From NCBI RefSeq assembly GCF_900129775.1, contig NZ_FQWV01000005.1, forward strand, positions 186,001 to 250,000: DNA of 64,000 nucleotides, in the 5' to 3' direction. Both the position numbers and the translations under genes were made by a program. The notes beneath the pieces are model-generated. The model was not told the DNA's origin and did no database searches. It worked only from the letters and a program-made list of their open reading frames with translations. Position 1 is the first letter of the stretch. The number at the start of each line of letters is the position of its first letter. This document shows, piece by piece, positions 45,568 through 54,570 of this stretch. The DNA comes from Halobaculum gomorrense. GTDB lineage: Archaea > Halobacteriota > Halobacteria > Halobacteriales > Haloferacaceae.

Positions 45568-45902
45568 ACGCGCTTATGTGGGTCGATGCCCGCGCTCGCC
45601 TCGACCGATTCGTCGGTCCGACTTCGCACGTGGCGCTGTCAGTCCCAGCGTGAGTCAACCGTCCCGGTGGGTGTGAGCGAGCGGTGATGCCCCTTCTCGT
45701 TCGTCCTTCGAGGCGTGAACAACGCGAGCGCCTCGCCCTTCGCTCACGGGTCGCTCCGCTCCCCGTTCACCGACGGTGACGCTCACTTCGGGGGACCGGA
45801 TTCGAACCCCGGTCGTTCCACTCACTCCGTTCGCTCCACTCCCTGCCTCGAATCCCCTCCGTGTCGATTCTCACGGCTCTCCCGTTCGGTCAAGCCGGAG
45901 AA
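45568..45902. other. region between the acetyltransferase pseudogene and tRNA-Leu
   Basis: About 335 bases without a gene. It contains a copy of a tRNA 3' end and a matching inverted arm (see 45788-45860) and GC-rich CTCACTCCGTTCGCTCCACT-type sequence. Nothing else is recognisable. Confidence 0.55.
45788..45860 (-). repeat. tRNA 3'-end fragment with inverted partner downstream of tRNA-Leu
   Basis: On the minus strand 45788-45814 reads GACCGGGGTTCGAATCCGGT then CCCCCGA, a tRNA T-arm plus 3' acceptor strand; it shares GGTTCGAATCCGGTCCC with the real tRNA-Leu. GGATTCGA (45798-45805) pairs perfectly with TCGAATCC (45848-45855) across 42 bases. It could be an old attachment-site remnant or a structured element beyond the tRNA. 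Confidence 0.6.
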
Positions 45903-45987
45903 TGCGCGGGACCGGATTCGAACCGGCGGACCTCTACAGGACAGCGTCCTAAGCGCTGCGCCGTTGGCCTGGCTTGGCTACCCGCGC
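45903..45987 (-). tRNA. tRNA-Leu (anticodon UAG)
   Basis: The 85-base minus-strand sequence has acceptor arms GCGCGGG/CCCGCGC with discriminator A, a D-arm (AGCCAAGCCAGGCCAACGGC), anticodon arm CAGCG-CTTAGGA-CGCTG with anticodon TAG at positions 34-36, a long variable arm (TCCTGTAGAGGTC) as expected for class II leucine tRNA, and T-arm CCGG-TTCGAAT-CCGG. No intron is present and CCA is not encoded. It reads CUA codons (and CUN by wobble). Confidence 0.93.
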
Positions 45988-54199: not shown

Positions 54200-54496
54200 G
54201 TCCTCGGCTTCGCGTCGGCGCCAAAATGACCGTCGAACGACCGTCGCCGCCACACGTATTTCGGCGATGTCGAACGAGACCTCAGTGACCCGGCGCCGAC
54301 CGACGCGCCGCTCACCGTCGTTGTGCCGCGAAAAGTACGGGCTGGGAGGGAGTTGAACCACGGTCGGACGTGCTCGCTCACTCTGTTCGCTGCGCGCGAC
54401 CTCCCTGCTTCAACTCTCTCGGATGCCGCTCCGCGACGCGGCTCCTCGCGCCGTTCGCTTCGCTCGCGACGTTCGTCGCAGCGCGTCGCGGTAAAA
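54200..54496. other. region between the MFS gene and tRNA-Lys
   Basis: About 300 bases without a gene. It contains a copy of the tRNA-Lys 3' half with an inverted partner (54341-54420), followed by GC-rich sequence with several GCTTCGCTCGCGACG-like short inverted repeats. Nothing else is recognised. Confidence 0.5.
54341..54420 (-). repeat. tRNA-Lys 3'-end fragment with inverted partner downstream of tRNA-Lys
   Basis: Plus-strand GGGCTGGGAGGGAGTTGAAC at 54340-54359 nearly copies the real tRNA 3' end (GGGCTTGGAGGGAGTTGAAC at 54498-54517). GGGAGGGAGTTGAA (54344-54357) faces TTCAACTCTCTC (54409-54420), with 11 of 14 positions able to pair. The arrangement is the same as downstream of tRNA-Leu. 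Confidence 0.65.
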
Positions 54497-54570
54497 CGGG
54501 CTTGGAGGGAGTTGAACCCCCGACCGACGGATTAAGAGTCCGTCGCTCTCCCTGACTGAGCTACAAGCCC
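54497..54570 (-). tRNA. tRNA-Lys (anticodon CUU)
   Basis: 74 bases on the minus strand: acceptor GGGCTTG/CAAGCCC with discriminator G, D-arm GCTCAGTCAGGGAGAGC, anticodon arm ACGGA-CTCTTAA-TCCGT with anticodon CTT, and T-arm GGGGG-TTCAACT-CCCTC. No intron and no encoded CCA. It reads AAG codons. Confidence 0.94.

Follow-up and report, generated by a model that had tools for sequence, protein, structure and literature searches.

Gene-less hairpin units holding copies of tRNA 3' ends stand behind tRNA genes of Halobacteria and may be recombining cassettes

Integron attC sites have the core consensus GTTRRRY/RYYYAAC, and the cassettes of integrons carry genes. The stretch from the T-loop to the 3' end of a tRNA is a usual att core of tyrosine-integrase elements. 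The attC features used below for comparison are those of PMC2727003; archaeal tyrosine integrases and their attB, attL and attR sites at tRNA genes are reviewed in PMC8371274; and the PATEs of Haloquadratum are palindromic mini-elements derived from IS200/IS605 (PMC3119063).

We report here units of about 100 letters that carry no genes and form tandem arrays behind tRNA genes. Outward from the tRNA, the order is the G53-N73 end, a T-rich stretch, hairpin 1, an inverted partner, an internal loop, an inner stem, a tip, an internal loop and the next G53-N73 copy, the partner and this copy being the arms of hairpin 2. Tested for the features of integron attC, the units show an imperfect hairpin, two paired stems, an unpaired spacer and a variable tip. 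They resemble integron arrays in that structure is kept and sequence is not, in the heterogeneous tandem units of one orientation, in the common anchor site and in the turnover of whole units. Unlike integron cassettes, they are gene-less, with a copy-to-copy spacing of 65-226 nt; no IntI is linked to them and no integrase gene was seen beside the anchor in the arrays inspected; the unit junction is GTTCRAN and not the attC core; and their outer stem reproduces the local tRNA, with anchors at many tRNAs per genome.

Like the tRNA attL and attR of tyrosine-integrase elements, the units hold a copy of the tRNA 3' end; however, at the above spacing the copies are stacked without an integrase inside, and where a conventional element occupies the same tRNA, its core is different. 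With REP/BIME sequences and PATEs they share the short, palindromic, gene-less form and, in many units, GTAG at the hairpin foot, but they stand behind tRNA genes, have a tRNA-specific 21-nt copy and need no Y1 transposase. As in CRISPR arrays and casposons, a fixed-length repeat is duplicated and, in the cases seen, inserts seem to go in at one end, although here a segment of a tRNA gene serves as the repeat and the inserts are structured hairpins. No description of such units was found in open-access full text (subscription papers and preprints lay outside the search), and within that literature the repeat seems to be undescribed so far.

The whole stretch of DNA analysed (64,000 nt, below called the window) has two tRNA genes, and both carry a unit (Table 1). 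The first-pass annotation had reported near-copies of the tRNA 3' end with inverted partners behind both genes, and these are real. Chance origin is ruled out for both copies: they match the last 21 nt of their own tRNA at 19/21 and 20/21 positions, and the best match to either 21-mer in 1,870 random 400-nt segments of the same sequence is 16/21. The view that one architecture at two loci is not accidental was right and even understated, the pattern being class-wide in Halobacteria; the term "hairpins" was also correct, as both the inner and the outer stem covary. The CTCACTC(C/T)GTTCGCT sequence named as common to the two loci does occur without mismatch in the window only there, but the GAGCGNAGCGAG-type motif is a common hairpin tip and is not tRNA-specific. 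A covariance-model search of the window against Rfam matched the two tRNAs and gave no family match for the units. The GAGCGNAGCGAG and GAACGNAGTGAG motifs at 45821-45835 and 54377-54391 exhibit a compensatory G-C to A-T change; such motifs form a GNA triloop with flanking tandem G.A and are found in many units, in hairpin 1 as well as in hairpin 2.

Table 1. tRNA genes of the window and the parts of their units (positions are those of the window)
Feature	Position	Strand	Basis
tRNA-Leu (anticodon TAG)	45903..45987	-	ARAGORN, Rfam RF00005
tRNA-Leu last 21 nt, G53-N73 (duplicated segment)	45903-45923	-	ARAGORN, Rfam RF00005
Leu unit, hairpin 1 (CGGCT..AGCCG), after short T-rich TTCT 3' of the tRNA	45874..45897	-	read from sequence
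Leu unit, inverted partner of T-loop/T-stem, AGGGGATTCGAG (left arm of hairpin 2)	45847..45858	-	
Leu unit, hairpin 2 core, type A (GCAGGGA..GACCGGG), GAGCGAACGGAGTGAG tip	45808..45846	-	
Direct copy of tRNA-Leu 3' end, GTTCGAATCCGGTCCCCCGAA, 19/21 (right arm of hairpin 2)	45787..45807	-	
tRNA-Lys (CTT); last 21 nt 54497-54517	54497..54570	-	ARAGORN, Rfam RF00005
Lys unit, hairpin 1 (CCGCGACGCG..CGCGTCGCGG)	54431..54491	-	read from sequence; orthologous spacer hairpins in related species
Lys unit, inverted partner GAGAGAGTTGAA, 11/12 to the reverse complement of TTCAACTCCCTC	54409..54420	-	
Lys unit, hairpin 2 core, type A (GCAGGGAGGTCGCGCGCAGCG..GAGCACGTCCGACCGTG)	54359..54408	-	
Direct copy of tRNA-Lys 3' end, 20/21	54338..54358	-	

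The duplicated segment is exactly G53 to N73 and does not include CCA. Compared with their own tRNA, 142 copies have an identity of 0.09-0.44 up to offset -2 and of 0.93-1.00 at offsets 0 to 20 (the copies were chosen at a match of at least 17/21 to the tRNA end); it is 0.54 at offset +21 and then goes down to about 0.33. The copy is perfect in 108/174 units, and its acceptor half is almost as well kept as the T-loop, though the outer hairpin hardly needs this half. A T-rich stretch (about 3 T per 6 nt vs 1.06 expected) follows every copy, and many cores have GTAG or GCAG at the hairpin foot. The same loop types turn up behind different tRNAs and in different genera. Type A is GCAGGGA/GACCGTGG, type B is GYAGA/GCGTGG, type C is CACG/AGGAG and type D is CCCTG/CTCCGG; there are other types as well. 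All 92 cores recognised as type A or B lie in one orientation, with 0 inverted. The largest count in one array is five tRNA-end copies, including the tRNA itself. Neighbouring units are mostly dissimilar (51/61 pairs below 0.7 identity) and therefore do not reflect simple tandem duplication, which is ruled out for most arrays; identical tandem copies exist in genomes G134 and G172.

A second, short palindromic insert type was observed within tRNA 3'-end copies in five tRNA 3' flanks (L062, L067, L331, L350 and L323), between the T-loop and the T-stem of the copy, e.g., CGACCCTCGCGAA..TTCGCTCAGTCCC and GTAGTTCGCAAACAAACCGCGTTTGCTCA. Neither a gene-bearing unit nor a free unit circle was found, with the sole exception of an insertion inside a copy behind tRNA-Arg of Halorhabdus amylolytica (L209). 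It is about 2.4 kb long, has a 337-aa membrane-protein-like ORF and interrupts the copy of the tRNA 3' end behind TTCAAATC, which is almost the same position.

The first-pass annotation had proposed to test the pairing of the copies for covariation. An inverted partner matching at 9/12 or better accompanies 121/142 copies vs 7/142 in the reversed control, and its T-stem part fits the cognate tRNA at 0.66 vs 0.39 for other tRNAs. The outer stem changes with the local tRNA: T-loops with TTCGAA, TTCAAC and TTCAATT each have a matching partner, and at L019 an altered copy, GTGCAAATC, is accompanied by a correspondingly altered partner, GATTTGCAC. In the inner stem, 403/468 pairs are Watson-Crick vs a mean of 210 and a maximum of 248 in 1000 shuffles; an independent count gave 36 double-change cells vs 12.6 shuffled. 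The stems of hairpin 1 are above the shuffled level as well (166 units). Apical GNA triloops, which are very stable DNA mini-hairpins, occur in 90/126 cores vs 25 shuffled, and GNRA has no excess. On the sense strand of unique outer stems we count 20 G.T vs 9 A.C, the G.U level being about that of tRNA stems. A G.T excess at this level is also compatible with RNA, and G.U vs A.C does not decide between RNA and DNA.

A survey of tRNA loci had likewise been suggested. In the genome of the window (G000; 3.2 Mb, 42 tRNA genes, all flanks read), 19/42 tRNA genes have at least one copy, 28 copies in total at a lenient threshold, and further units are present in decayed form. The sister species G293 has copies at 14/50 tRNA genes (complete set), and G033, which belongs to another family and is one closed contig, at 25/44 (39 copies). 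Units recur behind all kinds of tRNA. The specific pattern with two internal loops was found in 149/391 Halobacteria genomes and 62/86 genera (1 match in the control); 29/30 fetched loci have a tRNA upstream on the same strand, no more than about 430 nt away. A generic palindromic hairpin pattern was found in 45/48 Halobacteria genomes and 14/14 genera, with 0 matches of the reversed pattern. Across 84,980 prokaryote species, a scan found 48 loci, which belong to Halobacteria records except for two MAG contigs labelled just Euryarchaeota.

Orthologous tRNA-Leu and tRNA-Lys loci in 11 congeners hold 0 to 2 units of differing types. Clean empty sites are seen between G000 and G293 (L032/L356, L008/L301, L041/L365 and, in the reverse direction, L011/L303), and an extra tRNA-proximal unit is present in G293 and G296 relative to G000 and G145. 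The tRNA-Leu(CAA) locus is empty in 9/11 congeners, where the common flank begins directly at the tRNA end; G000 has one unit there, and G138 has a similar one inside a larger, more complex duplication. Considering that the closest sister G293 is empty and G138 is occupied, the gain of this unit requires two events or one loss. The unit of G000 is similar to that behind another of its own tRNA-Leu genes with the same 21-nt end (core 0.96, hairpin 1 0.88). Homologous recombination could account for gain between tRNA genes that end alike, and plain recombination between the 21-nt repeats could account for loss. Different tRNAs can have similar cores (0.86-0.92) together with dissimilar hairpin 1, and the two parts reassort both ways (hairpin 1 1.00 and core 0.64 at L337; 0.57 and 0.91 at L371). 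By eye, one unit of G145 seems to combine hairpin 1 of G296 unit 1 with the core of unit 2 from the same genome, as though the two had been joined by recombination at the partner. In two Halorhabdus species the order of units is not the same.

Two side observations concern tRNA loci. The larger duplication at tRNA-Leu(CAA) (L421/L428, in G000 and G138) includes a piece of tRNA from the anticodon arm; behind this piece comes a hairpin that is inserted near the variable arm (GAGGTC^..GTCCAAGG). At L355 (G293:C14:36346-39975) about six tRNA or tRNA-like genes are clustered, possibly on a mobile element, and some of them are low-scoring.

The first-pass annotation had considered that the copies might be relic att sites left by elements integrating into tRNA genes, and in the plain form this idea is not upheld. 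In G296 (C1, L289 145-6170), a 6.1-kb tyrosine-integrase element occupies the tRNA-Leu orthologous to that of the window; the att copy of this element starts within the anticodon arm, and an intact unit array lies downstream of the element. As the att core is different and the array is left behind the element, the units are not ordinary attachment-site relics; their short gene-less form, recurring at all kinds of tRNA, is also against it. At L198 a tyrosine recombinase gene adjoins a degenerate tRNA-end copy and a unit. Judging by these two cases, elements and cassettes share the target region, and in the fully readable case, G296, the duplicated segment differs. The search for integrases near copies, also suggested there, did find them near units (L198, L216 and G296), but they belong to separate elements. 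No integrase gene was seen beside the anchor tRNA at the two window loci or in the intact arrays inspected. Tyrosine recombinases are present in 8/8 genomes tested, and none is linked to arrays. A scan of viral contigs gave 109 matches, 0 of which keep the T-loop hairpin, and virus-borne cassettes are thereby ruled out.

A family of tyrosine recombinases of about 340 aa, with about 35-88% identity (L410, G000:C12 ~114,300-114,800; L198; L411-L416; L419), has members in several Halobacteria genomes of the test set; one of them stands beside a unit and an element-like junction. The evidence for or against its being the single vertical enzyme of the units is not decisive.

Exact boundaries, covariation, one orientation and whole-unit differences between related species are observed directly, and we believe that the units are probably mobile or recombining cassettes of some kind. 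More specifically, with a probability of about 0.5, they would be gene-less mini-cassettes, anchored at tRNA genes and recombining at the T-loop via a folded single-strand site, by analogy with attC. A unit would be gained by site-specific recombination at the T-loop, within GTTC: one copy of the 3' end would make the tRNA complete again, and the second would come to lie on the far side of the hairpin. Recombination would act on hairpin 2 after the tRNA-sense strand, in single-stranded form, has folded as an integron attC does. The T-loop and its inverted copy, paired in the outer stem, would reconstitute in double-stranded form the T-loop site found in the tRNA gene, GYAGA/GCGTGG and its variants in the internal loop would be the unpaired spacer, the inner stem the second binding box and the GNA-tipped loop the variable terminal structure. 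The tRNA T-loop would be the counterpart of attI, and a tyrosine recombinase is the likeliest putative enzyme. It is tempting, if tentative, to propose a new recombination system, in which gene-less cassettes that fold as single strands and store the tRNA 3' end are shuffled at many tRNA T-loops throughout Halobacteria by a putative recombinase.

The hairpins can also be considered as RNA elements, transcribed after the tRNA and selected as trailer structures, backup terminators or processing signals, with the tRNA-end copy and the T-rich tract produced by local duplication. The covariation with some G.U and the T-rich stretch after every copy agree with this, as does the fact that hairpins and T-stretches serve as terminators in Haloferax volcanii (PMC7237163). 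We regard it as rather unlikely, considering that more than half of the tRNA genes in the same genome have no units, that presence and type vary between sister species, that the acceptor half of the copy is nearly as conserved as the T-loop without much use for the outer hairpin, and that the tips are GNA triloops and not GNRA. Our preference is for a role of the hairpin in DNA recombination over one in RNA processing or termination.

The fixed 21-nt duplication of locus-specific sequence, the tRNA-proximal extra units in two sister pairs and the many perfect copies would also be expected from target-site duplication, in which an integrase of the Cas1/casposase type or another inserts DNA between the T-loop and the discriminator with a stagger of 20-21 bp; the tRNA end would then be like a CRISPR repeat, with hairpins as inserts added next to the tRNA. 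We consider this proposal improbable; by itself it does not account for the inverted T-loop copy already within the insert. Slightly less credible are non-autonomous single-strand transposons of the IS200/IS605 or REP/RAYT kind, moved by a Y1 HUH transposase with GYAG at the hairpin foot as the guide and the T-loop as the cleavage site: hairpins near both ends, GTAG or GCAG at the foot of many cores and the single orientation suit them, but Y1_Tnp (PF01797) is absent from the unit-rich closed genome G033, from G127 and G016 and from the congeners G293, G340 and G108, which weakens a Y1/HUH origin, and G014 has 10 Y1 matches and 0 matches of the generic hairpin pattern. Attachment-site scars, i.e., provirus or plasmid remnants after internal deletion, seem the least probable, even though real elements use the same tRNA genes (the G296 tRNA-Leu, and the recombinase gene beside the unit at L198): a covarying two-hairpin structure recurs at tRNAs of every kind, in G296 the att copy has its start in the anticodon arm and precedes an intact array, and the viral matches lack the T-loop hairpin.

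The recombination and RNA readings make opposite predictions in simple tests, for which Haloferax volcanii or a relative can be used. In any event, the units are a widespread repeat that rewrites the 3' flanks of tRNA genes across an archaeal class, with strong covariation and fast turnover. If they act as RNA, they would be a new class of tRNA trailer structure. If it is true that the cassettes recombine as folded single strands, this would be an integron-like mechanism outside integrons, with tRNA genes as its platforms.
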